From a virus: 26,391 nt of DNA. Below, piece after piece: positions 179 through 22,575 of the stretch (the stretch's first letter is position 1; each line of letters starts with the position of its first letter). Location: the IMG/VR virus record IMGVR_UViG_3300020195_000150, positions 1-26,391 of that record. One strand, given 5' to 3'. A program made the position numbers and the translations under genes. The notes beneath the pieces are model-generated. The model made no database searches and was not told the DNA's origin. It was given only the letters and a program-made list of their open reading frames with translations.

Positions 179-289
179 ATGAATGACGACGTTAGCAAGC
201 CGATGGCGGCGGTAGCTGAGTATGTTGAGTTGGTTATTGCCCTCAACTGTGGCTACGCTGTACCGACGCTACCAAGAGGGAGAGTTTAG
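179..289 (+). CDS. Small hypothetical protein, 36 aa
   Basis: ATG at 179 is preceded by GAGGAGGACGC, a strong ribosome binding site at good spacing. The frame stays open to TAG 287-289. The product begins MNDDVSKPMAAVAEYVELV and ends in a short basic stretch, PRGRV. It has no recognisable domain. Its stop codon shares one base with the GTG start of the RecA-like gene (TAGTG), which suggests translational coupling. It may be a genuine mini-protein or a leader that feeds ribosomes into the ATPase gene. The ribosome binding site and exact junction are the main support. Confidence 0.5.
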   Translation: MNDDVSKPMAAVAEYVELVIALNCGYAVPTLPRGRV

Positions 290-1239
290 TGCCAAAGAAA
301 GCCATCGCCGAAATAAGCGATCTCTTAGACTCCGGACTCATCATGTACGGGAACGACCCGCGTCTGGAAATACGGCGGCAGCCAACACTGATTCCCGGCT
401 TTGACGAGCTCCTAGGGGGTGGATGGCCCGCAGGTCGCTATACGCAGATTGTTGGCCCCGAAAGCGTTGGCAAGACCGTCCTATTGCAATTTGCCGCAGC
501 CAGCCAGCAACAGCATAAAGAGCGCCCGCATTGCCTCATAATTGACCTAGAACGTTCATACGATAAGGAGTGGTGGACAGCCAGCGGCGTAGATCCGGCA
601 AGTCTAATGGTCGCACAGCCGATGACGGGCGAGGAGGGCATAGATGTTATCTTGGCCGTCATCCATGCAGATCCGCTTTTGGGCTTAGTGGGCGTAGACA
701 GTATTGGGGCCATGTATCCCAAATCTATGATAGAGCCAGAAAAAGGGGCCGAACAGAGGTTCGTAGGCAATCAGGCCACGATGGTAAAACAGTTTTTTGC
801 TATGTGTACGCCGCAGATGGACGGGATTATCTTTATCCTATTGAATCAGATGCGCGCAACTATAGGTGGATATGAGGAGACCTATCCCGGCGGCTGGGCA
901 ATGCGCCATAATAACCACATTACGCTACGAACCCGTCGTGAAGGCTGGCTTCTCGAAAACGAGACCCGCGTTGGATTTATACTCGAGATAATAAACAAGA
1001 AAAATAAGGTTGGAGGAACACAGGGAGCAAGTATCCAGATTCCGTTTAGGTTCAGAGGACAAATAGACTTCATACAGTCATATATTGATGAGGCTATTGA
1101 GCGCAAAATCATTATCAATAAAACACCAAGTTATATATGGGGTAAGGAAAAGTTCTTTGGCAAAGGGAAACTTAGACAATACTTTCTCGATAATGCCGAA
1201 GCTCTAAAGAAATTAGAAGAGCAGGTTTCGAACAAATGA
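289..1239 (+). CDS. RecA-like recombination ATPase
   Basis: The 316-residue product has the RecA/Rad51 ATPase core. The Walker A motif GPESVGKT lies at residues 56-63, close to the bacterial RecA form GPESSGKT. The Walker B region GVDSIGAMYPK is at about 135-145. NQMRATIG at about 186-193 matches the NQ-R start of the RecA L2 DNA-binding loop and is followed by a glycine-rich TYPGGWAMR. The protein is a little shorter than bacterial RecA (about 350) and its C-terminus diverges. RecA-family proteins form filaments on single-stranded DNA and drive strand exchange. The start is GTG 289, preceded by AGAGGGA. Neighbouring nuclease and RuvC-like genes support a role in phage recombination or recombination-dependent replication. 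Whether it is a true recombinase or a UvsX/Sak4-like relative is not settled. Confidence 0.85.
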   Translation: MPKKAIAEISDLLDSGLIMYGNDPRLEIRRQPTLIPGFDELLGGGWPAGRYTQIVGPESVGKTVLLQFAAASQQQHKERPHCLIIDLERSYDKEWWTASGVDPASLMVAQPMTGEEGIDVILAVIHADPLLGLVGVDSIGAMYPKSMIEPEKGAEQRFVGNQATMVKQFFAMCTPQMDGIIFILLNQMRATIGGYEETYPGGWAMRHNNHITLRTRREGWLLENETRVGFILEIINKKNKVGGTQGASIQIPFRFRGQIDFIQSYIDEAIERKIIINKTPSYIWGKEKFFGKGKLRQYFLDNAEALKKLEEQVSNK

Positions 1240-1285
1240 AACTTGGTCAAAAGATGTCTCAAGAGTCTAATAATAGGAGGCTAGT

Positions 1286-1510
1286 ATGACGCCGCCACAT
1301 ACGTCTTCCAGATTCGTTATGGTACCGCCAATCGAGCGACCGTCTGGTAAAGAGATCAAGGCGTGGAGAAATAAAGAAAATATTACGCAGCCGATGCTTG
1401 CCGAGATGTGCGCCGTCACGACGCGCACGGTGGCGCGCTGGGAGCGTGGAGACATGCTACCCTCGCGGATGCTGAGACTGGCACTCTGGTACTGGGACTC
1501 AAAGCTGTAG
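1286..1510 (+). CDS. XRE-type helix-turn-helix protein
   Basis: The 74-residue product has one DNA-binding domain. The stretch KEIKAWRNKENITQPMLAEM leads into a recognition-helix segment TTRTVARWERGDMLPS, typical of Cro/C1-type (XRE) folds, in which a W-E-x-G motif follows the third helix. The ATG at 1286 sits behind ATAGGAGGCTAGT, a strong ribosome binding site. There is nothing beyond the DNA-binding domain, so no cofactor or dimerisation module is visible. In this early operon it could repress or time neighbouring transcription. Its operator cannot be assigned from the sequence alone. Confidence 0.75.
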   Translation: MTPPHTSSRFVMVPPIERPSGKEIKAWRNKENITQPMLAEMCAVTTRTVARWERGDMLPSRMLRLALWYWDSKL

Positions 1511-1525
1511 GGCTAGGAGTAGTAA

Positions 1526-1879
1526 ATGGGAATTCATACACAGGGCGAAACGACACGTACTAAGCCGCACAGGCGCGTAGAACGCATTTTGGATAAGATG
1601 CAGATAAGTTATGAAAGTGAACATGGATTTTACCCATACTCGGTCGACATCTACGTCTCCGAATGGCATATCGGTATTGAAGTCGACGGGCCACAGCACA
1701 GCGCCGCGAAAGATCGTATTAGAGACGAGATCATACGAGAGCGCTACTTCCTCCCAATACTACGTTTGTCAAGCGATAGGCTTAGTCCGCAACAAATCAT
1801 GACGAAGATCGAAGACTTCGTGGTAATCTGGGCGCAGACCACCGAGCAGCGCAAGTTTCAATGGAGGACACAGCTATGA
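1526..1879 (+). CDS. DUF559/Vsr-like PD-(D/E)XK endonuclease-fold protein
   Basis: The 117-residue product shows the pattern of small nuclease-fold proteins related to DUF559 and Vsr. An N-terminal helix (RRVERILDKMQISYESEHGF) is followed by the strand YSVDIYV with a candidate catalytic Asp, then the strand GIEVDGPQHS, whose E-V-D-G and His match the Vsr/DUF559 active-site neighbourhood. After that come a helix of charged residues (DRIRDEIIRERYF) and a final strand ILRLSSDRL. The ribosome binding site AGGAG lies 6 bases before the ATG. It probably cuts or processes DNA in replication, recombination or host-DNA degradation. The substrate is unknown. Its stop overlaps the next gene's start (ATGA). 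Confidence 0.7.
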   Translation: MGIHTQGETTRTKPHRRVERILDKMQISYESEHGFYPYSVDIYVSEWHIGIEVDGPQHSAAKDRIRDEIIRERYFLPILRLSSDRLSPQQIMTKIEDFVVIWAQTTEQRKFQWRTQL

Positions 1880-2172
1880 GTATTAACCACCTACGAAACC
1901 TTGTTGCGACTCAGCGTGAATCATGGCCCAGTTTGGCCGAACGACATGTCTTAACAACCTCGTTAAAGCAAAGATGTGGCTGCGGCGGAACGATAGACAG
2001 AGTAAGGAATGACAAGAATAGACGGACAGTATGGTGGCATTGTACCTCAGGAATGAGATCAGAAGAACACAAGTTCGGTCTTAATGACGAAGAATGGGCA
2101 GACAATACTTACGAACTCGTGCTCTATGAGTGGCTAGAAAAGTGGCTAGAAGAGATACATGCTGAAAAATAA
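1876..2172 (+). CDS. Hypothetical small Cys-containing protein
   Basis: The preferred start is ATG 1876, which overlaps the upstream stop (ATGA) and follows GGAGG with 8 bases of spacing. An in-frame ATG at 1861 has no such site. The product is 98 residues. It contains RCGCGG and a later HCTSG, so half of a metal-binding knuckle pair is possible. The C-terminal third is acidic and aromatic (YEWLEKWLEEIH), probably an amphipathic helix. I do not recognise a family. It overlaps the next gene by 14 bases, which supports membership of the same operon. Confidence 0.65.
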   Translation: MSINHLRNLVATQRESWPSLAERHVLTTSLKQRCGCGGTIDRVRNDKNRRTVWWHCTSGMRSEEHKFGLNDEEWADNTYELVLYEWLEKWLEEIHAEK

Positions 2173-2920
2173 GTCCGTCAAGAAAGACAGCGCCCTAGCC
2201 CGCGTTCTAGCGCAAAGAACCGGCAAGTGGTTAGGGGCGCATATAGACACATGGATCGAAAGCAAGTCTGGGGCCAGATATGATCCGGGCTGGTTTCATC
2301 CTTCTGCACTTGGCAATCCGTGTGATGCATTTCTAGCGTTCGCCTACATGGGCACCGAGGCCAAAGGCAAATCTAATTCGCGCGGCCTACACATTATGGA
2401 CAACGGCACTAGCCGCCATATAGATTGGAGTCGCTATCTCGTCAAGTCAGGCGTTAGTCTGTTCAAGTATTGGGAAGGCAAGAAGGCCAAGCAAGAGCGC
2501 TCGTTTGAAATTCCCCAACTTCGCATTCGTGGAGAGTGTGACGATGCGGTAACAAACCCATTGACCAAAGAAAAATACATCTTTGAATTCAAGACGATGA
2601 ACAAAGACGCATGGGAAGCCCTGACGGAGCCTAAAAGCGATCATATAATGCAAGTGCATCCATATATGTTCGGCTTCGGCATATTGCAGGCCGTCATAGT
2701 TTATGAGAATAAAAACAACCAACAACGGAAGGAGTTTGTTGTCAAGTTCGACCAAGCCTTATGGCGCAGTATAGAAGCGCGGGTGCTGAGCATTATAGAA
2801 CAGGTAGAGCGTAAAAAATTACCGTGGCGCACTCCCCTTCCAAACGACAGTCAGTGCCAGTTTTATTCTAAAAATGCCACACATAGCGGATGTGCAGCGT
2901 TCACATTTAAGGAGGAATAG
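2159..2920 (+). CDS. Cas4/RecB-like PD-(D/E)XK nuclease
   Basis: The 253-residue product has the motif order of the Cas4/AddB-type nuclease superfamily. HPSALGNPCDAF carries Cys55, and MDNGTSRHIDWSRYL at 80-94 resembles the family's G-x-x-x-H helix. RGECDDA (Asp128/Asp129), IFEFKT (Glu143, Lys145) and QVHPYMFGFG (Gln165, Tyr169) provide the D, ExK and QxxxY catalytic motifs. Two cysteines near the C-terminus, Cys233 and Cys245, together with Cys55 could hold an iron-sulfur cluster. The usual fourth cysteine is not clearly placed, since Cys127 sits within the active site. Such phage proteins are single-strand exonucleases that generate recombination substrates. Its position between the RecA-like and RuvC-like genes fits that role. 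Confidence 0.75.
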   Translation: MLKNKSVKKDSALARVLAQRTGKWLGAHIDTWIESKSGARYDPGWFHPSALGNPCDAFLAFAYMGTEAKGKSNSRGLHIMDNGTSRHIDWSRYLVKSGVSLFKYWEGKKAKQERSFEIPQLRIRGECDDAVTNPLTKEKYIFEFKTMNKDAWEALTEPKSDHIMQVHPYMFGFGILQAVIVYENKNNQQRKEFVVKFDQALWRSIEARVLSIIEQVERKKLPWRTPLPNDSQCQFYSKNATHSGCAAFTFKEE

Positions 2921-3142
2921 ATGTTCGGACAAGGCAAGAAGACTAAGAAGCTTGAAGAAGAATTGGCATTCCAAAAACAGTGGCAGGATATCTATAATAT
3001 CTATTTCTGGGATCTTGTTAAAGTTCTAAAAGAAAAAGATCTTATTCCAAAAGAAATGTATGTCATGATGGGCACCGCGCCATACTCTTATACTAATATA
3101 TCAAGAACAACAGTTGGAGCGAACGATGCCCCGAAAACCTAA
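2921..3142 (+). CDS. Hypothetical protein, 73 aa, helical
   Basis: The ATG directly follows the upstream TAG and is preceded by TTAAGGAGGAATAG, a near-ideal ribosome binding site. The product is highly charged at the N-terminus (FGQGKKTKKLEEELAFQKQW), consistent with a short coiled coil, and then aromatic (DIYNIYFWDLVKVL). There are no cysteines and no recognisable domain. The last 17 bases overlap the next gene's start. It might be an accessory subunit of the neighbouring nuclease, but only its position suggests this. Confidence 0.6.
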   Translation: MFGQGKKTKKLEEELAFQKQWQDIYNIYFWDLVKVLKEKDLIPKEMYVMMGTAPYSYTNISRTTVGANDAPKT

Positions 3143-3764
3143 GGTCGTAGAATCTCTTATTCCTCGCAAGATCTCAATCCGTGACGAGCTAGGGCAACGC
3201 TGGGAGGTAGACGACCAGGACGAACTATGGCCTGAGGTCTTGAAGATCACCGACAATGGCCAGATAGATGCCATCCTGCCTATCTCTGTCATTCTGTCTA
3301 AGCGCGGCTGGGGCTGGTGGTCTTGTTTCAAGACACAAGATGAATGGCTGCAAAACATCGGCGTGCCTATTCCAACTCATAAGCTATTAGATAATGCCGC
3401 ACATTGCAGCGCCGCACAGCTTACTCCTCTGTTGCAGGAGTACGGGGCGTATGTAGGCTTCTTAGAGGCGCAGGTGGGTTTACTGTTAGGCCGCAGGGGG
3501 GCGCTTAAGAGCGCCTACGATGCTGCCGTTTTGGTGCATAGCGCACAGGCAGAGACAACAGGCACAGGCAAAGACAAAGAAGGACAAGCGCTCTTAGAAA
3601 GCGAAACCCTCAGGCAAACCAAACGATTGTTTATCGAAACAGACATGCTCTATGAAACGGCGAAGGGCATGTGTACGGGGTATGTTAAAGCCTACGAAGC
3701 CGTAAGCAGAATTGTTTCTGTAAGAATAGCCGAAATGGAGCTCTCTCCTCGGAGAATGCCATGA
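3126..3764 (+). CDS. Hypothetical early protein, 212 aa
   Basis: The chosen start is ATG 3126, with GGAG seven bases upstream. A TTG 12 bases earlier is in frame, but its own sequence supplies the ribosome binding site. The N-terminal half contains many Trp and charged residues (RWEVDDQDELWPEVLKI, RGWGWWSCFKTQDEWL). The C-terminal half is predicted to be almost entirely helical with alanine-rich heptads (GALKSAYDAAVLVHSAQAE and onward), suggesting a coiled-coil or bundle assembly. I do not recognise a family. Its place between the Cas4-like nuclease and the RuvC-like resolvase, and its ATGA overlap with the latter, suggest a DNA-metabolism role, but this is guilt by association only. Confidence 0.7.
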   Translation: MPRKPKVVESLIPRKISIRDELGQRWEVDDQDELWPEVLKITDNGQIDAILPISVILSKRGWGWWSCFKTQDEWLQNIGVPIPTHKLLDNAAHCSAAQLTPLLQEYGAYVGFLEAQVGLLLGRRGALKSAYDAAVLVHSAQAETTGTGKDKEGQALLESETLRQTKRLFIETDMLYETAKGMCTGYVKAYEAVSRIVSVRIAEMELSPRRMP

Positions 3765-4207
3765 TTGTAGGCATTGACTACTCCACCAAGTATGTGCATC
3801 TGGCGTGGAACCTTGGCGGATGGAACTACCCGCGCATTAAAGTAGAAGAAGATTTGGGTGAATTTCTCTTCAATCTTAATGACATTTTGCCTAGTCTATT
3901 AGAAGAAGACGGTCATATATATATCGAGCGCCCGTGGGCTAGATACAACGTACAGACTGGAATGCTCATGCAGAGAATAGCTACTGTCGTAGACGTAGTG
4001 GCTACGCAAGCCGGATATGAGACGCATTGGGTCGCCATAGCTGCGTGGAGGTCATTAATTTTTGGCAAAGGAACATACAAAACCAAGATTGCGAAACAAT
4101 TGGCTATTGCCAAAGCGAAAGAAGTGATGTATACAGAAGTAGATGACAACACAGCAGACGCTATCTGTCTCGCCCTATATGGACAGCAGGCCCGCCTTGA
4201 GAGCTAG
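3761..4207 (+). CDS. RuvC/RNase H-fold Holliday junction resolvase-like protein
   Basis: The 148-residue product matches the RuvC layout. The first strand MIVGIDYSTK carries Asp6. HIYIERPWAR has Glu56 and is the equivalent of the second acidic strand. IAAWRSLIFGKGTYKTK resembles the W-R/K segment before the C-terminal helix. VDDNTADAICLALYG provides Asp129 and Asp133 for the third and fourth acidic positions. The length is close to RuvC (about 170). RuvC-fold enzymes cut four-way junctions symmetrically using Mg2+ and would resolve recombination or replication branches before packaging. The start overlaps the previous stop (ATGA) and has CGGAG upstream. A debranching role rather than strict Holliday-junction specificity is also possible. 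Confidence 0.8.
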   Translation: MIVGIDYSTKYVHLAWNLGGWNYPRIKVEEDLGEFLFNLNDILPSLLEEDGHIYIERPWARYNVQTGMLMQRIATVVDVVATQAGYETHWVAIAAWRSLIFGKGTYKTKIAKQLAIAKAKEVMYTEVDDNTADAICLALYGQQARLES

Positions 4208-4559
4208 GCTTCCTCATACCCGTAGCGGAGTTACGCACAAGCTCGTGATTCATTCCGGTCAGGGAGATGTTGATCTGTATATTACAATCAACTTCTATCC
4301 CGGGACACTAAAGATCGCCGAGCTCTTTGTGGACGTAGGCAAGCAAGGCACGACGCTTCAATCCATGCTGGACGGCTGGGCGATCCAGACCAGCGTGGCT
4401 CTACAGTACGGCGTTCCGCTTGCTGTGATTATTGAGAAGTTCAGGGACACGGTATTTCCGCCAGACGGGCGCGTAACCGGCTTGGGCATCGAAAAGTGTT
4501 CTAGCCTCTTCGACCTGATCGTCCAAGTGCTCGCCCAAGAATCAGGCACTTCCCTGTAG
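4179..4559 (+). CDS. Stand-alone TSCPD/NrdJ C-terminal-like domain protein
   Basis: This resembles only the far C-terminal domain of class II (adenosylcobalamin-dependent) ribonucleotide reductase. RARLPHTRSGVTHK corresponds to the R-LP-TR-S-THK linker. DLYITINFYPG and IAELFVDVGKQGTTLQSML follow the Y-I-T-V...GEIFI-KEGST pattern. TSVALQYGVPLAVIIEKF matches the SLALQYGVPLE-LV-KF segment, and VFPPDGRV the FEP-G turn. No catalytic barrel or radical-site cysteines are present, so it cannot be a reductase by itself. It may bind nucleotides or regulate a partner reductase. The start is uncertain: ATG 4179 gives 126 residues, ATG 4143 would overlap the RuvC-like gene by 65 bases, and TTG 4197 is also possible. 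It is the last gene of the + operon. Confidence 0.7.
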   Translation: MDSRPALRARLPHTRSGVTHKLVIHSGQGDVDLYITINFYPGTLKIAELFVDVGKQGTTLQSMLDGWAIQTSVALQYGVPLAVIIEKFRDTVFPPDGRVTGLGIEKCSSLFDLIVQVLAQESGTSL

Positions 4560-4718
4560 GTACGTCGGAAGTTCTGACCTGCGAATATTCCACGAGGGCG
4601 GGGCGTCGATGCCTATAGAGGCAAAGCCGCGTGCCGTTCTTAGAATATGCACATAGATGGGCGTTCCCTGCACATCTATGATAATGCTCTCATCGCTCTT
4701 CCGTGAGACCACCAACAT
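4542..4718 (-). CDS. csrA: CsrA/RsmA-family RNA-binding regulator
   Basis: This 58-residue frame begins MLVVSRKSDESIII, matching the family start ML-L(T/S)RK-GE(S/T)I-I. It continues IYVHILRTARGFASIGIDAP, the counterpart of the strands ending in GI-AP. It ends with WNIRRSEL in the place of V-VHREE(I/V). The RNA-contacting arginines of E. coli CsrA (Arg6 and Arg44) correspond to Arg6 and Arg47. Differences are Val4 for Leu4, Arg46 for His43 and Ser48 for Glu45. CsrA dimers bind GGA in hairpin loops and block or stabilise mRNAs. The ATG follows CCGGAGGAATAGGTT, a strong site. It is the final gene of the late - strand operon and overlaps the end of the + strand operon by 18 bases. A late role in reprogramming host or phage mRNAs is inferred. 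Confidence 0.85.
   Translation of the reverse strand: MLVVSRKSDESIIIDVQGTPIYVHILRTARGFASIGIDAPPSWNIRRSELPTYLQGSA
4652..4680 (-). promoter_or_regulatory. Hairpin inside csrA with a CsrA-type GGA loop
   Basis: On the csrA mRNA, CAUAGAUG (4680-4673) can pair perfectly with CAUCUAUG (4659-4652). The 13-base loop reads UGCAGGGAACGCC. UGCAGGGAACG resembles the in vitro selected CsrA site RUACARGGAUGU and puts GGA in a loop, as high-affinity sites do. It lies about 40 bases after the start codon. Autoregulation is plausible but inferred. Confidence 0.4.
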
Positions 4719-4752
4719 AACCTATTCCTCCGGTGGCGTCAGCACGGTCTTG

Positions 4753-4941
4753 TTAAGCCACTGGCTGGCGCACTGTGGCGTACACAATGGGCACCGCGCC
4801 AGATATAAGCACTACGACGGCCTGTTGACCGTTAGGGACGCCCTGTGTCTGTACTGCCATCACTAGGTACGTGCCCAACGCAAAGACAAGGGCGCGCGCA
4901 AGTTCTTCAATCGGCTTGACGAAATAGAGTGGAAATTTCAT
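4753..4941 (-). CDS. Holin-like small membrane protein
   Basis: The 62-residue product has a short charged N-terminus (KFPLYFVKPIEELAR) and two hydrophobic segments: ALVFALGTYLVMAV at about 17-30 and AVVVLISGAVPIVYATV at about 41-57. A polar turn (QTQGVPNGQQ) separates them. Two closely spaced transmembrane helices in a very small protein near the end of a late operon is the usual look of a class II-type holin, which permeabilises the inner membrane at lysis. No endolysin is visible beside it, so the assignment rests on topology and position. The ATG follows GAAAGGGAATAGACG. csrA starts 34 bases downstream. It could instead be another small phage membrane protein. Confidence 0.55.
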   Translation of the reverse strand: MKFPLYFVKPIEELARALVFALGTYLVMAVQTQGVPNGQQAVVVLISGAVPIVYATVRQPVA

Positions 4942-5270: not shown

Positions 5271-5299
5271 ATTATAACACTGAGACGATGCCTTATCTA
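5271..5299 (-). promoter_or_regulatory. Candidate sigma-70 promoter
   Basis: Reading the - strand, TAGATA (5299-5294) is followed after exactly 17 bases by a perfect TATAAT (5276-5271). The -35 matches TTGACA at 4 of 6 positions. It lies in the only non-coding gap of the lysis-side cluster and would drive the 68-aa gene, the holin candidate and csrA separately from the long virion transcript. Confidence 0.4.
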
Positions 5300-5410: not shown

Positions 5411-5511
5411 GTTCTCTTCGCTTTCTCAGAGTCCTGGCGCATCCGTTCGATGATGCGCAGTATCTGGTTCTCAGGCCGCAAAATAGCATTATGGTCAATC
5501 TTGCGAATCAT
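5407..5511 (-). CDS. Mini-protein A, 34 aa
   Basis: ATG 5511 overlaps the stop of the baseplate hub gene as ATGA, and the frame ends at TGA 5409-5407. The product begins MIRKIDHNAILRPENQILRI and ends in a charged helix with MRQDSEKAKR. It has the same LRP-LR-IE-MRQ pattern as the next mini-protein. The two four-base overlaps on both sides, and the mutual similarity, are the main evidence that it is real. Its position after the hub suggests a tail-accessory or lysis-control peptide, but no function can be assigned. Confidence 0.5.
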   Translation of the reverse strand: MIRKIDHNAILRPENQILRIIERMRQDSEKAKRT

Positions 5512-7091
5512 CGCACCACCTGAGCTTCTACGCGATGTACTAACTTGTCTGTGTCAAAGTTGACGCCAAGTATCCGTACCACTCGCTCAATCGCTCCAGC
5601 CGGATCGGTTTCCGACAGCCGACATGTGATAATATCTCCAAGATTGACCCTCGATGCCGCGCCATCGAGCAAAGAGAAGCTAATAGACTCAGCGACGTGC
5701 TCCGGTGTGTCGAGCATCCGCGCCGCCGCGTTGAACAAAGCTTCCTGTTCCGTTACCTGTCGCTCAATCATAATACGTGTACCTCCCAGTCCCGGCCCTG
5801 TTGGTGTCGTCGTGGCGGTAGCCGACGGCCGTGCGCCGAACGTACCAGTACCGCCTACCACAAGCCCCGTACTGACAGACTCATCATAATCAATGCTGTA
5901 GCTCACGTCCTGCAAGTCTATCCCTTCTTCAATCACTAACTCGCCGCGCCGGTCGCGTCCGATCTGGCTCTGAAACAACAGCGCGGTATTAACGCCTTTG
6001 GAAGACACATCGTACCGGAAGCCCCATTCCCAGCCGGAGACCTCTGCCATCTGATTTAAGAACGTGTCTCCATTCTGCGCTTGATACTCGTAATCTAGAC
6101 CTGGCCCGTTGCCGACAGAAGACAGGTCGAGATAGAGCGCGGGTGCGGCACGCCGTTCAATCTCCGCCAACGTTACGCGCGTCACCAGTCCTGCTGGTCC
6201 GCGTGCAGTTCCACCAGATTTTGTCACAGAACGTTGCAGACGCCACACATGATCAGCAAGTTTGAACTGCACCTCAGAATCTGAATACCTTGCGTCATAT
6301 GTTCGTAGAAATCCTACCCATGGATGTGTGCCGTCGTAGCGTTCGATCGAGAACATCGGTGGCGCTCCGTCGGGATGCAACAGATGGCCGAACGCCGCGA
6401 GGCTCGGGTCTTCGCGACGCATCCGAAACGAGGCCGTCTGTTGGCGCATCAACATCTCGCCGTACGACAGATCGGCGGCGTCGATCTGCAATAGCTCCTG
6501 GTGCGGCGGGCACGACGACCGTAGATGTACCGTCGTGACGTTCGGCGCGTCTTCCCATTCGATCGTTATGACGGGCGCGGACTCCGGCGCGAAGTTGCGA
6601 GCGCGCGCATTGCGACTCGCCAATACCGACGAGCCGTTGTCTTCGAGGTAGATCGTCAGCGCGTTTCCTGGCACCCATCCCGGCTGATTGACGATCTCTT
6701 GGATGACGGCGGCGAAGTCCGGCGTCTCGTACCACACGTCTCCCACAAACGGGAGGACTGCGTTCCATGCCACGCTCGCGGCGGTGTCGGTGCGCGCGTC
6801 CCAATCGGCCGTCGATGGTATCTGCGGTGAGTTCGCCTGCTTGTCGCCCTTGATGATGACGTTACAGACAGTCAGGCTGCTGCTGCCGGACGCGCGGAAA
6901 CGAATGTTAGCCTGCTTGATCCGCGCGCCGCGTTTGATCTGCACGTTCGTCAGCCGCAGCGCCGTCGCCCGCGGCGTTCCTGTGGCGGAGCCAAACCCTA
7001 GAAGTAAGTCGTCAGCCCACGTCGCGCCAATGCGGCGCACGTCGTCAGCGTTATCGGCGATGAGGAACTGCTTGGTAACGGGCGCGCTCAT
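5508..7091 (-). CDS. Baseplate hub/tail protein with N-terminal DNRLRE-like domain
   Basis: The start is ATG 7091, overlapping the upstream stop as ATGA; longer in-frame starts run into the previous gene. The product is 527 residues. Residues 1 to about 190 resemble DNRLRE/disaggregatase-related beta-sandwich domains: IKQANIRFRASG, the aromatic W near 120, FAAVIQEIVNQPGWVPGNAL and then a final ITIEW strand. Such modules bind carbohydrate or mediate adhesion. Residues from about 200 onward look like a siphovirus hub (gp27-like/Tal N-terminus): MFSIERYDGTHPWVGFLRTY, DYEYQAQNGDTFLNQMAEVS, and the closing INLGDII-like segment RVNLGDIITCRL. The hub joins the distal tail ring to the tip. GC content is raised in the N-terminal half, suggesting that the adhesion module was acquired. 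Confidence 0.65.
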   Translation of the reverse strand: MSAPVTKQFLIADNADDVRRIGATWADDLLLGFGSATGTPRATALRLTNVQIKRGARIKQANIRFRASGSSSLTVCNVIIKGDKQANSPQIPSTADWDARTDTAASVAWNAVLPFVGDVWYETPDFAAVIQEIVNQPGWVPGNALTIYLEDNGSSVLASRNARARNFAPESAPVITIEWEDAPNVTTVHLRSSCPPHQELLQIDAADLSYGEMLMRQQTASFRMRREDPSLAAFGHLLHPDGAPPMFSIERYDGTHPWVGFLRTYDARYSDSEVQFKLADHVWRLQRSVTKSGGTARGPAGLVTRVTLAEIERRAAPALYLDLSSVGNGPGLDYEYQAQNGDTFLNQMAEVSGWEWGFRYDVSSKGVNTALLFQSQIGRDRRGELVIEEGIDLQDVSYSIDYDESVSTGLVVGGTGTFGARPSATATTTPTGPGLGGTRIMIERQVTEQEALFNAAARMLDTPEHVAESISFSLLDGAASRVNLGDIITCRLSETDPAGAIERVVRILGVNFDTDKLVHRVEAQVVR

Positions 7092-9835
7092 GCTTTCGCT
7101 CCGCGATGCACCAGCACCACATCCGTTTGTAGCATGTCCGGTTCCGTCCAGGTCAGCGAGTTCGCGCCCGCCGCGTACGTCAGCCACTCCGCCGGGTTGA
7201 CGGGGGCGACGCTCGACTTCGCCGGAAACGGCACGCCGTTTTCGGTGTACGTCGCCGTGCGGTTGGCGCAGTCGATCTCAAGCGTCGCGCCGGGCAGCAT
7301 CCACTTGTCGAGCGCGAAGCCTTCGCCCGTTGTCGCCGACGCCAGCACGCCCGTTGCGTGGTAGAGGTTGTTCGTGAACGCACTGATGCGATGGACGTAG
7401 GGTATATGCGAGAGTTGCCAAACGATGATCGTTTTGTCGAATGATGCGGATACTAGAGAGCGAGTTCCGGTCCCAGATACTACCGGAACAACGACAGGCT
7501 GATCGCCCTGTATATTGGCGTTCAGGCTGGAGTCATAGTCGCTAAGGAGATATGCACTAGCTGAAAAATCTTCATTAAATGTGTCCCACGTAGCCGTCAC
7601 CGTACCATAAATGCCCGACCCCTGACGACCACTATTTTCGCCTCCTAGTCGGCAAGGCAAATTCGTTGCCGTGCCGATTTCAACCCAATATGTTCCAGCC
7701 CTCCATAGTCCCCTTGAGGGCAGCACAAAAATATACCACGAAAATACTAGGGCGCCCGTTCCTAACGCTACGGTTGGAAGCAATGTCCTAGAAGAAAGTG
7801 TTAGGTCTGGGGCATTTCCTGAGTCAGGACGAACGTATCCAAAGACATTGACAGTTCCGCTAGTTACCTTCGCGGCATAGATAGCGACACCGCGAACAGG
7901 CTGATTTTTTTCTATGATGAACGGAAACGCAAGCCATCCGAGGGCGCCCTCATTGTCACTAGCTCCGCCAAATGAGAGTACATTGGGAGCCACTGCGGCC
8001 CGAAAGCCCGTGAGGATGTTGTACCGCGCCTTCAACTTGACGCCGTAGTTACCGGTGCCAGACAATGACGCCGGAAGAATCCTCCCCGCCGCCGCTGCCG
8101 CCTGTTGCAACTGATCAACGAGCTTCAGCGTACCGCTCGCATCGCGCACGAATAGCTCAAGGTTCAGCACTTCCGACGATGGCGTCCAGTCGTTGACGAT
8201 CGCCGACGTTAGCCCCTGCCGTACGCTCATCGGGAACGATTGTTCAACGTAGTTATACGGCGGCGAGCCGTCGCCCGGTGCATCGTCTTTGAACGTCAGG
8301 ATATTCCCGGACGCGGACAGTTGCAGCAACGGCGATATGTCGTTGCCGTCCTTGTCGAAGCCGGGCACCCACTGCGCCGTGCGTCCAGGGTTCGCGGGAT
8401 CGTAGTACACCGTCGAAGCGTCGTCTGCCTGATCGCCCCACCGCCACAGGCCGTTATTCGATTCGATGAGTTGGCACGCTGGCCGCTTCGACGCGGGCGA
8501 CGGCGGCGCGTCAGCGGTAGCCTTGCCAACGGCGACGGTGTAGAGCAGCGGGTTTCCGTACGCCAGCTTCGATACCGCGTGTGTCGCCGCCGTCGTTGAA
8601 TGCACGCCGCGCACGAGTCCCTGAATGCCGAGCGCCGTCTTTTTCGTGTAGTAGACGATCTCGTTTTCGAACGCCATGAACCCCGGCACCGGCAGATCGA
8701 GCGCACCCTCGATAAAATCCACCGACACCGACGCGGCAGTCATCGCGCCCGCGAGCGTCTTCTTGACGACGGGCGGCGCGGTGAGATTGCACACCACGTC
8801 AGACGCCGTGCTGTTCCATGCCACGAGCCAGCGGTCGATCTCTACGTCGTTCATCCAGACGCGGCAGTCGTCGCCGTTCGGTAGCACGCCACTCGCGGCA
8901 ATCGCGGCCCCGATAGGGTGCGTCTGGGCGGTCGTGCCGCCGAGCCCACGCACGCAGCCAGTAAGATTCAGGCCAGACACGCCCGCATAAGAGATCTCCT
9001 CCATCGTCCCGAACGTCGCGCCCGTTACCCACCTGATCACGGCCATTCCGCCAGCCGCATCGAACGCCGCCGCGTTCGTGACGGCGATCGTCGTGCCCGC
9101 CGCTCCGGGGTCTGCCGTCAACGTCGTGGCGCTTGTCGTGCGCCTAACGACCGCGCCAGATGCGGCGGTGTCCGTCGCCAGCCGAGCCGCGACCCCGGTA
9201 TCGTCGAATAGCCACACCGGGAGGTTATTCCATGCGTTCGGCGCTTTATTCACCAAGAAGCCGCGAAATGACCACTTGTAATCGTTGACATCGTTGGTCT
9301 TTACGAGGTCGGGTGTGTGCGTGATCACCGGACGCGCCTTGCGGCTACCAGCGTTCGTCGGCGCAATAGCGATCGAGTTAGCGGCGACGTTGAGGTGCGA
9401 GACGGTGGTGGCGGAGTCCTGCTCCCATATAGGATTCGCAACACGGATGGGAACATAGAATAGCCGAAGAACATTAGGAACGCGCTTTGGAGAGCTTAGA
9501 GCGCGCGCCTGAACGCGCCATATCGCTCCGTCTCCATCGGTAATTCTAAGATATACAAGGCCGTTCTCTGGATTAAACGTAGAATACATAGTCGCAACTG
9601 AAGACTCATCGGTACTAGAGACGACAATGTATATCTCCCAAGTTTTTCCTTTAGGTTGGGCGCGGACATCTCTGCTTCCAATTCCAGTAATCTCGGCCTC
9701 TATCTCTTGGTACTCTCCGGGATCAGTTCCTGGACCAGGACTTGCCGCCCGGAAAAATGCTCGCATGTAGACGCCAGCGGCACCGTCAACGGTCGTCCCG
9801 TTCCAAGAAAGAATTTTGTAGTCCTGTTGGGGCAT
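7088..9835 (-). CDS. Large distal tail protein (Dit-like) with inserted adhesin domains
   Basis: The 915-residue product starts one base inside the tape-measure stop (TGATG). Residues 1-200 resemble the N-terminal part of siphovirus Dit: VRAQPKGKTWEIYIVV, LVYLRITDGDGAIWRVQARAL and a VPIRVANPIWEQ stretch. The last 75 residues (LEIDCANRTATYTENGVPFP, then WLTYAAGANSLTWTE) resemble the C-terminal Dit/phage tail-family domain. A typical Dit has 200-300 residues, so about 600 residues are inserted. The insert contains two related repeats (about 253-305 and 372-425, both ending in VRG and TTA-TH), then a jelly-roll-like domain (about 630-745) with GVAIYAAKVTSGTVNVFGYV and GTYWVEIG. This is the layout of evolved Dit proteins that carry carbohydrate-binding modules. 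Receptor binding is inferred. Base composition changes inside the gene. Confidence 0.65.
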   Translation of the reverse strand: MPQQDYKILSWNGTTVDGAAGVYMRAFFRAASPGPGTDPGEYQEIEAEITGIGSRDVRAQPKGKTWEIYIVVSSTDESSVATMYSTFNPENGLVYLRITDGDGAIWRVQARALSSPKRVPNVLRLFYVPIRVANPIWEQDSATTVSHLNVAANSIAIAPTNAGSRKARPVITHTPDLVKTNDVNDYKWSFRGFLVNKAPNAWNNLPVWLFDDTGVAARLATDTAASGAVVRRTTSATTLTADPGAAGTTIAVTNAAAFDAAGGMAVIRWVTGATFGTMEEISYAGVSGLNLTGCVRGLGGTTAQTHPIGAAIAASGVLPNGDDCRVWMNDVEIDRWLVAWNSTASDVVCNLTAPPVVKKTLAGAMTAASVSVDFIEGALDLPVPGFMAFENEIVYYTKKTALGIQGLVRGVHSTTAATHAVSKLAYGNPLLYTVAVGKATADAPPSPASKRPACQLIESNNGLWRWGDQADDASTVYYDPANPGRTAQWVPGFDKDGNDISPLLQLSASGNILTFKDDAPGDGSPPYNYVEQSFPMSVRQGLTSAIVNDWTPSSEVLNLELFVRDASGTLKLVDQLQQAAAAAGRILPASLSGTGNYGVKLKARYNILTGFRAAVAPNVLSFGGASDNEGALGWLAFPFIIEKNQPVRGVAIYAAKVTSGTVNVFGYVRPDSGNAPDLTLSSRTLLPTVALGTGALVFSWYIFVLPSRGLWRAGTYWVEIGTATNLPCRLGGENSGRQGSGIYGTVTATWDTFNEDFSASAYLLSDYDSSLNANIQGDQPVVVPVVSGTGTRSLVSASFDKTIIVWQLSHIPYVHRISAFTNNLYHATGVLASATTGEGFALDKWMLPGATLEIDCANRTATYTENGVPFPAKSSVAPVNPAEWLTYAAGANSLTWTEPDMLQTDVVLVHRGAKA

Positions 9836-12800
9836 CAGTATCCCGTCCCGAGCGCCGCTAGTCCTGCTTGCGGATCTCCATGTATCTCAATCGTGTCAAT
9901 GTAGAAATTCTTAATAGTAGGTCTTCCGCCAGAAGCGTTCTCTGAGGCAGGAATAATTCTTTCTCCGCGGTGAACAAAAGCCAACGTATCGCGAGGAACA
10001 AAGTCTATTCCACTGGCATATCCTGGAGCGCCAATCCATTTCATAAAGGCGTCTCCACTGCCACTAGCGAATGCGTCCTTCATTCGCTTCATGTCGGAAG
10101 AAGAGGGTCCGCTAGACCCCCCACCTGAGGAACCAGCAACAGAAGCGTTAATTTGATCGCCTACTCTCTCAGCTTGAAATCCCATTGCTCTTAGTTGCTC
10201 AGTAACCTGATTATTAAGAGAGATATATCCTGTCTGGATCGCCGCCGTCCCATTAGCGATAAGAGAGGTTACGAATCTATTAAATATATCTCCCTGGACC
10301 CCAAGACGCTCCTTCATGCGGCTCATTCCAGAAGGACTAAGGAAGCCCTGACCAAAATCAGACTCAGTGCCCTTGGGCCTTTCGTCCAACGGCCCACGTC
10401 GCCACCACGGCACGGCTCCGTCTCCAGCGGCCCCAGCGACTCCAGCAGCTCCGCCACCGCCCGTAACGCCAGTAATAGCACTAACGGCCCCAGTAATGGC
10501 GCTAGTGGCTCCTGAGGTTGCCCGTATCCACGCCATAAAGGCGTCTTCGTTACCGGAGGCGAATGCGTCATGCATTCGCTGCATGTCTTCAGCAGAGGGA
10601 CCGCCACCGGCAACGGTATTGTCCTCTCCAGAAGCCGCTGTGACATATGCCGCAAAGGCATCGCCATGACCGGTGGCTATAGCAGCCAGCATAAGCAGGG
10701 TATTAGCGTAAATCTCTTGGGCGCTTGCAACCTCGTCAAGTTTAGCGGCCTGTGCTTGTAGAGCGGCGGCATAGGCATCTATGGCAACGACAAGCTGACT
10801 GTTAGTAAGAAGCGTCTTGTCCTCTGCGATGACTTGATTCTTCAGGATGTCTATTTTTAACTGCTGGAGACGCCTTTCTTCCTCAAGAAGGGCAATCTGA
10901 TCATCGATCGCTTTCGTCTGGCCAGACAGAGCTTCGATCTGGTCCTCCACCACATCTATTTGACGCTCGTAGAAATCTCTTGAAGGCTCATTTATTGCTG
11001 TACTAGCAGCTTTGCGTAAACGATCAAGCTCGGCCTGGAGCGCGTCAAGGGCGGGCTTATTGGCGGCGACAATTATCTCTCTCTCTAACGTAAGAGTGCT
11101 GATCTTAAGATTAAGCTCTGCTGTCTCTTTTGTGGGCTTATCGAAGAGAGCGTTATACATACTGTTTAGGGCATCAAGCGCACTAGAGAGCTCGTCCCGC
11201 ACATTTTTAGCAATTTGCGCGAACATACGCGAGAACTCTTGATCTATTGTTCTTCCAGACTTGAGGGCCGCTTCTGCCATCAAGACCCATATCGTGCGCA
11301 GTTGAAATGCCTTATCTGCCGCTTGTGTCTGCGCAACGCTCAGCGCCACCGTCGCCGCCATTATGCGTTTTTCTAGATCCAACTTATCTTCTATGACTTT
11401 AGTTTGCACCTTGAGCGAGAAAACCTGCGCGTCAGCTCCTTCTCTTACGGCCACCTCGTAGGCTACCATCGCATCAATCAAGCCCTGCTCAAGTGCGATC
11501 TTTAATTCGAGGACACGCAGGCGGACGGTATCCATTGCTATCGTCATTGCCAGAAGAGGATTGCTCTGTTGCTCCAGGATAGCGTTATAGACAGACTGCG
11601 CTTCTACAAGGCTCTTCTGTAGGTCAAGCCATGCCTTGAAGGCGTCAACGCTGTCGCTACCTGTCTGGGCGTTAAAGATCTTGAAAGCATCGGCAAGAGC
11701 TAGAAGGCCGAATTCGGTCTTATTGAGCTCATCCGTCTTACCGCCTCCATAGATAGATGGCGTGTCGCCAGCGGCAACGCCCGCTCCAAATCCCTTATTT
11801 GCATCTTCTGGCAAAAGTTGTGGAAGACTAAATGTTCCTCTAACTTTTTCTGCAAGGGCCTTGCCGAAAATAGGGATACCGGCAAGTCCCTTTTGCAGAT
11901 CCACTCCTAAATTCCCCATTGCAAGAGAGACACTAATTGAATATCCCCTGCTGAACAAATCCAAGAACGCAATAACCTTATCCATGTCGTCCCAAGGAAG
12001 TGAGGCTAGGACTTGCATAACGACAGATGGAGGCAAAGCATTCAGCGTAGCCGTAAGCCGCTGCGTCGCCGTATTCACCTCGTCATTTGATCTATTAAGC
12101 GCAGAAAGCTGAGAGCCATACAGAGTAACAAGAGATTTTGCTCCACTAAGAACATTACTCTGTTGTTCTATCGTATTCTTCAGCCCCGCCATCTGCGCGT
12201 CTACATCTTTTGTGCTTTGGCCCGTGGCCTCTAGTTCTAACTTATAGCCGTTAAGAACGACCATTTGTACTTCTAATGCTTCTGTTAGCGGATCAAACTT
12301 GTCAAATCCCTTTAGTGCGTCATCAATAGCAGATCCAAGATCTTCAAACTCAATCTCGGCATCTGAAATTGCCTGACCGAATTTATGCATGGCATCTGTA
12401 AATTGACCGTCGGCAAACCTTCCAAGACCAACAGGTTCAATCTTGAATAGATTAAGCTGGTCAGCGGCATCTATCAGCCCCGCAAGAAGATCTGCACGTT
12501 GCGGGCCTTCTGGAAGCTTTAGAATCTCATCTCTTAATTGCCTGTACGCTCCTGTCGTGTCCTTAACTCCAGAAATAAGTGCTGGGAATCCGTCGATTAG
12601 GGCATCTTGCTTGGCCTTGATAGTTGCAAGTGCATCTTGTGCTTCCGCAGAAGTATTGGACCATGAAAGACCATAGTCAATGATGACAACTCCGCCAATC
12701 TTAAGAGATGGGCTTTCGTCAAACTCTTTCTGCGCTTCCGTAACTGCGTTCATTGTTGAAACTGTTTGAGCGAGATAGCTATCTATCGTCCTAGAAAAAG

Positions 12801-15024
12801 ACTCGGCCTCATTTCCAGTAGTTTTTAATCTATTTGCTAATTCCGAGAGAGAGTCGGAAATAGTATTATTTGCAGACGCTATTCCTGCTGCCTTCTCGTC
12901 AGCGCCACTAAACCGTTCAAAGATGTTCTGTCCAGTCATCGCCTGAGAAACTGCATTTACCGCAGCGAGGCCTAATAGCAGAATTCCTAGGCGCGCTATT
13001 AGTGTTGCCGTTGCAACAGACAGTTTTGCCGTTGCTGCCGCAGCGACAGTCGTTGCCGTGGAATACCCGAACAGTCCCGCTGTTGCGACCGCTATTGCTC
13101 CAGTTGCACTGGCCATGAATCCAATCATCGTGGCGAAAGCACCTATGAAGATAGCTAGGGGACCAACGGCCACGGCAATTCCAGCAACAATAAGCAAGAA
13201 ATTACGCGCGGGGGCGGGTAGTCTTGTAAATGCCTCCACCGCCTTGTCAATAATTGGAAGAATTCCAAACATGGCTTCGGCAAGTGGCTTCGCTGCATCT
13301 CCCATCTTAATCGCATCTACTTGTAGATTAGCGACGAAGCTCTTCCACTTGAAGCCAAACGTGTCGACCATATTGGCATAGTCGGCTTCTAGGCTTCCGG
13401 CAGAAGCGGCAATCTGGTCATGCGCTTCGGCCACTTGATCAATTTGATTGAGCAGCGTAACAAGTGTCGTACTGGTTCGTCCTCCACCGAACGCTTCCGA
13501 AATCAGCCGGGCCTGTGCAGAGGGATCGCTTGTGAACGCCTCCAGGCTGTCTTTTAAGAGTTTCAGCCCAGCATGTAGTCCTTCATTGCGTACCGCACGG
13601 GAAAGGTCTAGCGTTCTAAGTCCAAGCTTATCTAGGATGGCGACGGCCTTATCTGTCGGGGCAGAAAGCAAAGAGAAGGTCATTCTCAAACGTGTGGCCG
13701 CAGAGTTAGCATTCACTCCAGAGTTCGTGAGTACGACCATTGCCGCACCCATATCTGTTAGGCTCACGCCGAAGGTTCTAGACGCGGCAAGAATGCCCGT
13801 GCTCATAGACTCGGTAAAGTCGTCCATGTTCAAGCGACCATGCGAAACAATGGCGTTCATTGTTCCCATCGCGACCGCCGCGTTTGTTGCGCCATCTACT
13901 TGCGAAACCATCGTCGCAGCCAGAGCTTTGGTTACGTCTTCTAGATCAGCCTGTCCTGCTACGGCTCCCATCGTGGCAGCGGTCATAGCGTCTACAGCCG
14001 CCGCGCCGCGAATATTAACAGACTCGATGCTGAACAGGGCCTCGGCCAATGCGACCGGAGTTTGTCCAGAAACTCTAGCGAGTTTCAACATTTCTCCTGT
14101 CATGAGCTCTACTTCAGCAGCCGTACCGCCCGTCTGGGACTGAATCTGCTCCATCGCAGTTTCATATTTTGTTGCTGCGATAATAGATACCGCGCCTACG
14201 GCAGCAATGGGAAGGCCAATTCCCATTGTGACGTTCATGCCCATTTGACGGGCGCGCGTGCCCCATTTTTCAAACCGCGCACCAGACTCCTCAAGCTTCG
14301 CGCCTAATTCACTTAGGCTACTTATTGCAGGGGCAACGTTCATCTGGGAAGCGAAGCCAGCCCCCATTTGAGAGATGAGCGCAGAAGAGGCTAGGTTGGC
14401 TCTGGCGACAGCCGCTATTCGTCCCTGGTCCAACGCATCGTCAACCAGCGCAAAGGGAGATGGGCCGGGACGTGGCCTTGCAAAAGGATCAAGTCCTTGC
14501 GACAGGGCGGCAAAGCCCCGTGCGCGCGAAGCTATCGCCAGCCGCTCTTCTGCAACAGCGGCTTGATTTGCCGCTACAGCCAAAGATTCTCGCAATGCAA
14601 TTGCGTGAGCCATTGGGGCATTCGCAGAGGCCTGAGCGATTTCCAGTTTAATGAGAGCGGCGGCTAGGCGGTCAAGACCGGCGTTCTCTATCGCAAGAGC
14701 TTGCGCGCTTGCAATAAGAGTTGCTTGAAAAGATTTAAGCGCATTGCCAGCGGCCAGAGCCGCGCCCGAAAGCTTCTCCAGCATGGCCGCACTTGTGCCA
14801 GTGCCCGCCGCGTACCTTGCAACAGCTTCGCCAGCAAGCCCATACGCGGTAGTAAGCTGAACTAGCTTTAGCTGAGTATTCTGACCAGAGATACTTAGCT
14901 TGGAGAAAGCGGCTTGGCCCACCACGCCAAGCGTCTCGAGATTACCAATGAGCCTAGCAACAGCTTCTTCGCCTATGGCGGAGACAACGATAGGAACCTG
15001 TACGCCGTCGCCGCCCATTACCAT
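9835..15024 (-). CDS. Tail tape measure protein
   Basis: This is the longest gene, encoding 1729 residues. The TP901-type tape measure core lies at about 285-510: ATKYETAMEQIQSQTGGTA, then AMVVLTNSGVNANSAATRLR and an FGGGRTSTTL segment. A strongly hydrophobic block follows at about 605-690 (LLIVAGIAVAVGPLAIFIGA), as expected for a membrane-inserting segment. Long coiled coils fill the C-terminal half. The C-terminus has the common motif YASGIDFVPRDTLAFVHRGE. Tape measures set tail length at about 0.15 nm per residue, so a tail near 260 nm is inferred. ATG 15024 is 9 bases after GAGGAA and directly follows the stop of the frameshifted chaperone. Three degenerate DAF-containing repeats lie near the end. 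Confidence 0.93.
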   Translation of the reverse strand: MVMGGDGVQVPIVVSAIGEEAVARLIGNLETLGVVGQAAFSKLSISGQNTQLKLVQLTTAYGLAGEAVARYAAGTGTSAAMLEKLSGAALAAGNALKSFQATLIASAQALAIENAGLDRLAAALIKLEIAQASANAPMAHAIALRESLAVAANQAAVAEERLAIASRARGFAALSQGLDPFARPRPGPSPFALVDDALDQGRIAAVARANLASSALISQMGAGFASQMNVAPAISSLSELGAKLEESGARFEKWGTRARQMGMNVTMGIGLPIAAVGAVSIIAATKYETAMEQIQSQTGGTAAEVELMTGEMLKLARVSGQTPVALAEALFSIESVNIRGAAAVDAMTAATMGAVAGQADLEDVTKALAATMVSQVDGATNAAVAMGTMNAIVSHGRLNMDDFTESMSTGILAASRTFGVSLTDMGAAMVVLTNSGVNANSAATRLRMTFSLLSAPTDKAVAILDKLGLRTLDLSRAVRNEGLHAGLKLLKDSLEAFTSDPSAQARLISEAFGGGRTSTTLVTLLNQIDQVAEAHDQIAASAGSLEADYANMVDTFGFKWKSFVANLQVDAIKMGDAAKPLAEAMFGILPIIDKAVEAFTRLPAPARNFLLIVAGIAVAVGPLAIFIGAFATMIGFMASATGAIAVATAGLFGYSTATTVAAAATAKLSVATATLIARLGILLLGLAAVNAVSQAMTGQNIFERFSGADEKAAGIASANNTISDSLSELANRLKTTGNEAESFSRTIDSYLAQTVSTMNAVTEAQKEFDESPSLKIGGVVIIDYGLSWSNTSAEAQDALATIKAKQDALIDGFPALISGVKDTTGAYRQLRDEILKLPEGPQRADLLAGLIDAADQLNLFKIEPVGLGRFADGQFTDAMHKFGQAISDAEIEFEDLGSAIDDALKGFDKFDPLTEALEVQMVVLNGYKLELEATGQSTKDVDAQMAGLKNTIEQQSNVLSGAKSLVTLYGSQLSALNRSNDEVNTATQRLTATLNALPPSVVMQVLASLPWDDMDKVIAFLDLFSRGYSISVSLAMGNLGVDLQKGLAGIPIFGKALAEKVRGTFSLPQLLPEDANKGFGAGVAAGDTPSIYGGGKTDELNKTEFGLLALADAFKIFNAQTGSDSVDAFKAWLDLQKSLVEAQSVYNAILEQQSNPLLAMTIAMDTVRLRVLELKIALEQGLIDAMVAYEVAVREGADAQVFSLKVQTKVIEDKLDLEKRIMAATVALSVAQTQAADKAFQLRTIWVLMAEAALKSGRTIDQEFSRMFAQIAKNVRDELSSALDALNSMYNALFDKPTKETAELNLKISTLTLEREIIVAANKPALDALQAELDRLRKAASTAINEPSRDFYERQIDVVEDQIEALSGQTKAIDDQIALLEEERRLQQLKIDILKNQVIAEDKTLLTNSQLVVAIDAYAAALQAQAAKLDEVASAQEIYANTLLMLAAIATGHGDAFAAYVTAASGEDNTVAGGGPSAEDMQRMHDAFASGNEDAFMAWIRATSGATSAITGAVSAITGVTGGGGAAGVAGAAGDGAVPWWRRGPLDERPKGTESDFGQGFLSPSGMSRMKERLGVQGDIFNRFVTSLIANGTAAIQTGYISLNNQVTEQLRAMGFQAERVGDQINASVAGSSGGGSSGPSSSDMKRMKDAFASGSGDAFMKWIGAPGYASGIDFVPRDTLAFVHRGERIIPASENASGGRPTIKNFYIDTIEIHGDPQAGLAALGTGY
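10030..10680 (-). repeat. Three degenerate DAF repeats in the tape measure
   Basis: The encoded protein carries three copies of a short motif: ATGHGDAFAAYVTAASG (about residue 1455), ASGNEDAFMAWIRATSG (about 1490) and ASGSGDAFMKWIGAPGY (about 1655). The last two are each preceded by the related run SAEDMQRMHDAF or SSDMKRMKDAF after a Gly/Ser-rich linker. Similarity is visible at both protein and DNA levels for the last two copies. Confidence 0.65.
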
Positions 15025-15258
15025 CTAGCTAGATTCCTCGCGCATGCTCTCTTGGAAATCATTAACTGCGCCGCGCACTAAGAACCAGCCCTCTATAAAA
15101 CCAGAGGGCAGGGCAAGATACTGCCAGAAGTCTGTGATCTTAAGCTCTAGCGCCTGCATAGCCAGTTGCATCCCTACTCGCTCTGGACATCTTCCGCCGT
15201 CGAGGTTGTCTGGACTCCAGGGATCACTGAGATGTTCGATGAGCTCTCGGTAGATTCT
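15025..15258 (-). CDS. -1 frame extension of the tail assembly chaperone (gpGT-like)
   Basis: This frame is open without interruption from the A8 slippery run to TAG 15027-15025, immediately before the tape-measure ATG. If ribosomes slip back one base after the second AAA codon, they add 77 residues beginning RIYRELIEHLSDPWSPDNL. The fusion product would be 105 + 77 = 182 residues. The extension contains ITDFWQYLALPSGFIEGWFL, with the aromatic and LP character common in T extensions. Lambda-like phages make such G/GT pairs to chaperone tape measure and tube assembly. An independent start (ATG 15168) is possible but has no clear ribosome binding site. Confidence 0.75.
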   Translation of the reverse strand, partial: RIYRELIEHLSDPWSPDNLDGGRCPERVGMQLAMQALELKITDFWQYLALPSGFIEGWFLVRGAVNDFQESMREESS

Positions 15259-15572: not shown

Positions 15573-15632
15573 TGATCCTCCATGATCTATCATCCATTCC
15601 AGTGCCGCTCTCTTGTCAAGCGGTAGCACTGA

Positions 15633-16061: not shown

Positions 16062-16067
16062 GTCACA

Positions 16068-16073
16068 CCTCCC
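16068..16073 (-). promoter_or_regulatory. Shine-Dalgarno GGGAGG of the ATC-start tube paralogue
   Basis: GGGAGG lies six bases before ATC 16061, the same motif and spacing as before ATG 16813 of the related gene. This fixes the start despite the non-standard codon. Confidence 0.7.
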
Positions 16074-16081
16074 TCTACTAC

Positions 16082-16813: not shown

Positions 16814-16831
16814 ATGAGACCTCCCTTCTGG

Positions 16832-17278: not shown

Positions 17279-17301
17279 CGAGTTGAAGCTGATCTCAGCA
17301 C

Positions 17302-20130: not shown

Positions 20131-20151
20131 AAGTAACCTCCATGTTACCGT

Positions 20152-20994: not shown

Positions 20995-21005
20995 GTATAT
21001 CTCCT

Positions 21006-21023
21006 ATCCGGACAAGGCCGGAT
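21006..21023. repeat. Inverted repeat before a virion-type gene
   Basis: ATCCGG and CCGGAT flank a six-base spacer just upstream of the GGAGATATAC ribosome binding site. It could form a short hairpin in the leader but has no T-tract, so it is not a standard terminator. Confidence 0.3.
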
Positions 21024-21052
21024 TAATATACCCCGCAAACTTCATTGTTTGC

Positions 21053-21523: not shown

Positions 21524-21558
21524 ACTATTCCTCCATCATCCATGATGAAACTAATTAC

Positions 21559-22569: not shown

Positions 22570-22575
22570 TTTACT

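Follow-up and report, generated by a model that had tools for sequence, protein, structure and literature searches.

Comparison of predicted RNA hairpins at the start codons of csrA-carrying phages leads us to propose, with somewhat more confidence than doubt, that phage CsrA controls the translation of the phage's own late genes, often including csrA itself. Whether many phage CsrA proteins would be dedicated regulators of phage late genes, rather than or besides agents of host reprogramming, we regard as an even call. Predicted canonical CsrA sites are statistically enriched at phage ribosome-binding sites, where they occur beyond chance expectation, the effect being weaker when only the vicinity of csrA is considered. 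On these sequence comparisons, translational control of late genes is the best-supported role of the protein; reprogramming of the host is the leading alternative and might also accompany it. By itself, the gene is one more member of a published class; the new part is the predicted set of targets among the phage's own genes.

The window, that is, the whole 26.4-kb IMG/VR record that was analyzed, encodes on its minus strand, at 4542..4718, a 58-aa protein that is present in its list of open reading frames; the plus strand across the same interval is interrupted by stops. A sequence-only reading had assigned this interval, without giving a strand, to a CsrA homolog, and profile searches bear out the assignment: the Pfam CsrA model (PF02599) matches at 45.7 bits with an E-value of 6.4e-12 (cut-off 27), and PHROG 9500, 'CsrA-like regulator', matches with an E-value of 2e-5. 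The similarity, which had been said to span the full length, extends over residues 1-50 of the 58, aligned to positions 1-47 of the 53 in the Pfam profile. Because the score against the NCBIfam csrA model (TIGR00202; E 1.4e-8, 34.8 bits) lies under the equivalog cut-off of 70.1, the protein is classified by profile as a member of the CsrA family, yet not as an ortholog of the standard bacterial csrA.

The MLVVSRKSDESIIID start and the GIDAP and IRRSEL motifs pointed out in the sequence-only reading are each present in the protein, and the two arginines that it had listed as retained are indeed kept, R6 as R6 and R44 as R47 (E. coli CsrA numbering first). Changed relative to E. coli are L4 (V4, a conservative substitution), R7 (K7), V42 (I45), and I47 (L50). 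For contact with RNA, L4 and R44 have been singled out as especially critical (PMC7652899). Three additional residues follow strand 1 in comparison with E. coli CsrA, and similar insertions after this strand are found in other viral CsrAs; in an alignment of 36 viral sequences, M1, L2, V3, R6, E10, I14, R47, and E49 are invariant. The AlphaFold monomer model (pLDDT 86.9, pTM 0.65) is predicted to adopt the CsrA fold: its 13 best matches in the PDB are all CsrA, RsmA, or RsmE chains (TM 0.5-0.7), the top match being RsmE in complex with the hcnA Shine-Dalgarno, with E-values of only 0.06-0.4 because the chain is very short.

With respect to genomic context, csrA is the final gene on the minus strand and shares its terminal 18 nt with the 3' end of a convergent, stand-alone TSCPD-domain gene (4143..4559, plus strand; Pfam TSCPD E 1.6e-10), 63% identical to its counterpart in G001, the one related phage discussed below. 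The TSCPD domain, which elsewhere is located at the end of ribonucleotide reductases, is a separate phage gene here and is kept as such in G001. This gene closes a plus-strand recombination and replication block (289..4559) that includes a UvsX/RecA-like protein, an HTH protein, a Cas4-like exonuclease, and a RuvC-like resolvase. The minus strand carries the late-strand block of head, tail, and glycosyltransferase genes (5508..26340), with the genes for the head maturation protease (23109-24578), the major capsid protein (21559-22458), and the tape measure protein (9835-15024). This gene order supports the earlier claim that csrA is the last of the late-strand genes; its late expression would follow from that position. 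Two consecutive genes within the head and tail block, at 17846-20130, encode a group-1 glycosyltransferase and a 288-aa glycosyltransferase-like protein (19264-20130, minus strand), both about 74% identical in G001; the second of the two matches no Pfam family by itself. A 160-aa protein encoded at 25858-26340, where the late strand begins, matches ECF sigma factors very weakly (E 0.03, below cut-off) and could be a late regulator.

The csrA leader (4719..4740, minus strand) contains a strong Shine-Dalgarno (CCACCGGAGGAATAGGTT before the ATG), recognized from the sequence and by leader comparison, with the ribosome-binding motif GGAGGAA. A promoter-like site, TAGATA-17-TATAAT with TG before the -10 element, is located at 5271..5299 on the minus strand, in the gap that precedes the last three genes, and such sites are no more numerous than expected by chance. 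Upstream of csrA, a 62-aa gene with hydrophobic stretches (4753..4941, minus strand) had been proposed as a holin candidate. It has no match in Pfam, PHROG, or NCBIfam and is missing from G001, which leaves a link between csrA and lysis timing through a holin unsupported.

A single phage related to that of the window was found in IMG/VR, G001, a 41.6-kb contig (with L002 as a part of it). Since G001 encodes a 64% identical CsrA in the same position, as the last late-strand gene, with an overlap of 45 nt with the TSCPD gene, the csrA frame in the window is not a chance occurrence. The identity between the two phages is comparable for csrA (64%), its neighbors (63-71%), and the major capsid protein (77%), so csrA is apparently as old in the lineage as the backbone, and a recent acquisition was rejected because the gene has diverged to the same extent as its neighbors. 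The substitution rates between the two genes (dN 0.35, dS 1.6) indicate purifying selection on csrA. In the interval from the tape measure gene to csrA, there is nothing detectable in common between the two phages; the tail-tip and lysis genes are wholly different, and an Amidase_2 endolysin is recognizable only in G001. Since csrA is kept while these genes differ completely, it appears to be a gene of the lineage that is not tied to any particular holin. The explanation we favor is that csrA, a stably maintained gene of this phage lineage, codes for a functional RNA-binding protein of the CsrA family.

Several further features emerge from the comparison of the two contigs. In these two phages, with 45-79% identity among their head genes, the non-homologous block (window 4719-9835, G001 25103-33147) has the appearance of a clean module replacement bounded by csrA. 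A possible regulatory element is the second-longest exact DNA match between the contigs (21 nt, 22653-22673), which on the minus strand lies just ahead of the gene for the capsid protein. In G001, the lysis genes are accompanied by one for a 107-aa protein (L012 11627-11950) whose similarity to the Lar restriction-alleviation family stays under the threshold. Searches with the capsid alignment and the CsrA protein detected no relatives among 84,980 bacterial genomes, a nucleotide search among named phages yielded no match to the window phage, and a tail-protein query gave nothing. Outside this lineage, no csrA-TSCPD pairing was found among 80 csrA-positive loci.

As for the likely targets, RsmE and CsrA favor short-stemmed hairpins with an ANGGAN hexaloop, which often contains the Shine-Dalgarno (PMC7652899), and from this published work we derived the rule of a six-base ANGGAN loop on a stem at a ribosome-binding site. 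Scanning both phages with this rule revealed several predicted hairpins directly ahead of late start codons. In the window, the predicted site GGTAAC-ATGGAG-GTTACT (20132..20149, minus strand) has the Shine-Dalgarno in its hexaloop. This site is 1 nt away from the downstream ATG that starts the 288-aa glycosyltransferase-like gene, and in G001 the site ATAATC-AGGGAG-GATTAT lies directly before the orthologous ATG. Both leaders form a 6-bp hairpin, with compensatory changes in the stem and loops that differ from each other and remain ANGGAN; no other site is clearly preserved as a complete hairpin in both phages. The predicted site GATC-ATGGAG-GATC (15574..15587, minus strand) is located 1 nt before the ATG (15572) of a tail-assembly-chaperone-like gene, where the corresponding G001 leader reads AATC-AGGGAG-GAAT, with a broken stem. 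The third predicted site, TTTCATC-ATGGAT-GATGGAG (21531..21550, minus strand), lies 7 nt before the ATG of a 156-aa gene that follows the major capsid gene. On the plus strand, ATTT-AAGGAG-GAAT (2905..2918), before a 73-aa gene at 2921, is a weak predicted site with a weak AU/GU stem. The csrA leader of G001 carries a canonical ANGGAN hairpin, and no such hairpin was found in that of the window (4719..4740). No exact DNA match between the contigs is longer than the 23 nt within csrA itself on the minus strand (GATGTGCAGGGAACGCCCATCTA, 4654..4676), a stretch that contains CAGGGA; the next is 21 nt. In the window, it could form the loop of a 7-bp hairpin, and because this stem is poorly kept in G001, it is a weak candidate for an internal CsrA site.

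Among 63 curated leaders of the two phages, tested against 1000 flank shuffles, 7 of the 31 ANGGAN motifs sit on stems of at least 4 bp (0.59 expected), a number reached in none of the 1000 shuffles. Control loops in the same two phages (non-A, penta-, hepta-, and shifted) occur at chance level, and folds of whole leaders are mostly no stabler than shuffles; the signal resides in the loop register, not in overall stability.

The comparison was extended to 33 other IMG/VR contigs with a confirmed csrA and 33 contigs without csrA chosen by random 14-mer. Gene starts in these contigs were called by a simple rule, and several versions of the test were run; all P values given here are uncorrected. 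A first, looser cross-virus test was positive but included many false starts; the gene-aware test took its place. In the csrA-positive contigs, ANGGAN loops lie on stems of at least 4 bp in 27 of 558 cases (11.6 expected), with 14 on stems of at least 5 bp (4.7 expected) and 8 on stems of at least 6 bp (1.8 expected), whereas non-A control loops reach 16 of 1131, 3, and 3 at the same thresholds (25, 9.9, and 3.7 expected). The contigs without csrA yielded 5 of 393, 1, and 0 (7.4, 2.8, and 1.1 expected), and the difference between the two sets has uncorrected Fisher p values of 0.0015, 0.0037, and 0.014 at stems of at least 4, 5, and 6 bp. Two or more such leaders are present in 7 of the 33 csrA-positive contigs versus none of the 33 others (p 0.005, uncorrected); 20 of the 33 csrA-positive contigs have no such site. 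When 16 loop registers were compared, clear enrichment in the csrA-positive contigs was confined to the canonical hexaloop and to concentric loops, and no register was enriched in the contigs without csrA. Removal of a related pair of phages, G008 and G019, leaves 19 sites versus 10.4 expected. The leaders of phage csrA genes also carry the hairpin in 8 of 59 cases (1.3 expected), two of the eight being the same hairpin in related genes. Restricted to about 10 kb around csrA, a strict test shows no excess at 4 bp (9 of 410 versus 8.9); the excess is not significant at 5 bp (6 versus 3.4) and small at 6 bp (5 versus 1.3; P 0.01, uncorrected). The strong enrichment came from the long-contig version of the test, not from this near-csrA version.

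The G008 (L231-L232) and G019 (L283) phages have ANGGAN Shine-Dalgarno hairpins at up to six late-type genes; the hairpins are shared at two orthologous-looking genes, at one of them with a wholly different stem. For a test of own-gene control, these phages would be better suited than that of the window. With regard to frequency, a degenerate pattern for the CsrA start was found in at least 119 viral stretches in IMG/VR contigs, and csrA was present in 1 of 34 random contigs; by these counts, phage csrA is common in IMG/VR contigs.

We infer a mechanism in which csrA is transcribed last on the late strand and its product, most likely as the usual dimer, would bind hairpins with an ANGGAN hexaloop that include the Shine-Dalgarno of phage late mRNAs. 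The targets would be the glycosyltransferase-like gene, the tail-assembly-chaperone-like gene, the gene that follows the capsid gene and, in G001, csrA itself. Blocked ribosome entry would lower or delay the translation of these genes late in infection, repression being the presumed effect rather than activation, and csrA would often feed back on itself. Phages might have taken over a global regulator of the host and set its hairpins over their own capsid-, tail-, glycosyltransferase-type, and csrA ribosome-binding sites, with a late timing or dosage circuit as the outcome and a presumable benefit to the phage.

In the published view, the main targets of phage CsrA are host mRNAs, with effects on metabolism, surface structures, or immunity (e.g., repression of cas genes), and the protein has no dedicated targets in the phage. 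This view, which we consider possible although rather unlikely, draws on the repression of CRISPR-Cas by host RsmA, homologs of which are encoded by phages (PMC8450108), the reshaping of the host proteome by the plasmid protein RsmQ (PMC9928087), the smaller plaques that result from csrA knock-down in phage PTXU04 (PMC11879866), and the normally pleiotropic action of CsrA. From this view, however, one would expect neither canonical sites at the ribosome-binding sites of the phage nor more of them than in phages without csrA. Both roles could be true together. The suggestion of the sequence-only reading that the phage retunes translation is likely to hold, whereas the targets that it named, host metabolism and lysis timing, are unsupported, the evidence favoring the phage's own late mRNAs. 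An improbable variant holds that the hairpins are real CsrA sites read mainly by host CsrA, for example coupling late translation to host physiology, with the phage protein substituting for, competing with, or mixing into host dimers. It gains from the tendency of csrA-positive phages to infect csrA-positive hosts (PMC8450108), because of which the csrA-positive contigs are biased toward CsrA-containing hosts. The presence of sites in the phage csrA leaders themselves and the selection that holds csrA in the window-phage lineage argue against it.

Hairpins that sequester the Shine-Dalgarno exist without CsrA, and inverted repeats are also DNA palindromes, so the hairpins might serve as RNA thermometers, in translational coupling, or as DNA operators, the match to the CsrA loop being incidental. 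We assign this possibility a quite small probability, since enrichment is restricted to six-base loops that begin with A, whereas loops that are shifted, shorter, or longer, or that lack this A, occur at chance level, and since contigs without csrA show no enrichment. Finally, csrA might be a mere passenger whose position is preserved by nothing more than its overlap with the TSCPD 3' end, which amounts to 18 nt in the window and 45 nt in G001. This seems highly improbable to us, considering that the overlap covers only the tail of csrA and that the RNA-binding core is under purifying selection, with all key residues kept.

Phage csrA is widespread, and the literature assumes host manipulation. 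Should phage CsrA mainly control the phage's own late mRNAs, its role could be probed with short RNAs and reporters, and each phage would have a defined list of targets. The sequence-only reading cited Legionella elements as a precedent; the presence of csrA in phages themselves is already published (PMC7366521, PMC8450108, PMC11879866). The csrA alleles were reported in 30 of 2517 phage genomes (PMC7366521), GenBank and IMG/VR have been searched from the same Pfam model, with host manipulation including anti-CRISPR action proposed (PMC8450108), and Bcep22-like phages carry csrA, possibly in the virion (PMC9144972). In common with these homologs (Pseudomonas RsmM phages, Bcep22-like phages including JC1, and PTXU04), the window phage has a short CsrA-family gene with conserved RNA-binding residues in a tailed-phage genome. 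It differs in the divergence of its protein from those of named phage records (best match 40% identity, E 0.4), in the 3-residue insertion after strand 1, and in the location of the gene at the junction of late and early regions. The papers on known phage csrA genes propose or measure effects on the host or on plaque size; we did not find sites on the phage's own mRNAs reported in them, and in the open-access literature we found no report of a phage CsrA acting on phage mRNAs. The RsmQ protein of plasmid pQBR103 (PMC9928087) and csrA of Legionella elements are likewise CsrA-family regulators on mobile elements. For RsmQ, in contrast, changes to the host proteome and conjugation have been shown, and we did not find site enrichment in the element's own leaders reported (PMC9928087).

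Bacterial CsrA, RsmA, and RsmE repressors, such as RsmE on the hcnA Shine-Dalgarno (PDB 2jpp), share with the window protein the predicted fold and the predicted site, an ANGGAN hexaloop over the Shine-Dalgarno, and are usually autoregulated. Unlike them, the window CsrA is encoded by a virus, and its predicted targets are virion-assembly and glycosyltransferase-like genes. The T4 RegA and gp32 proteins and the MS2 coat protein, which are not homologous to CsrA, are phage proteins that bind phage mRNAs near their ribosome-binding sites and repress translation. If our proposal is correct, a host-derived member would join this short list of autogenous translational repressors of phages: in contrast to RegA, gp32, and the MS2 coat protein, the window CsrA would be a global regulator of the host type that has been taken over.
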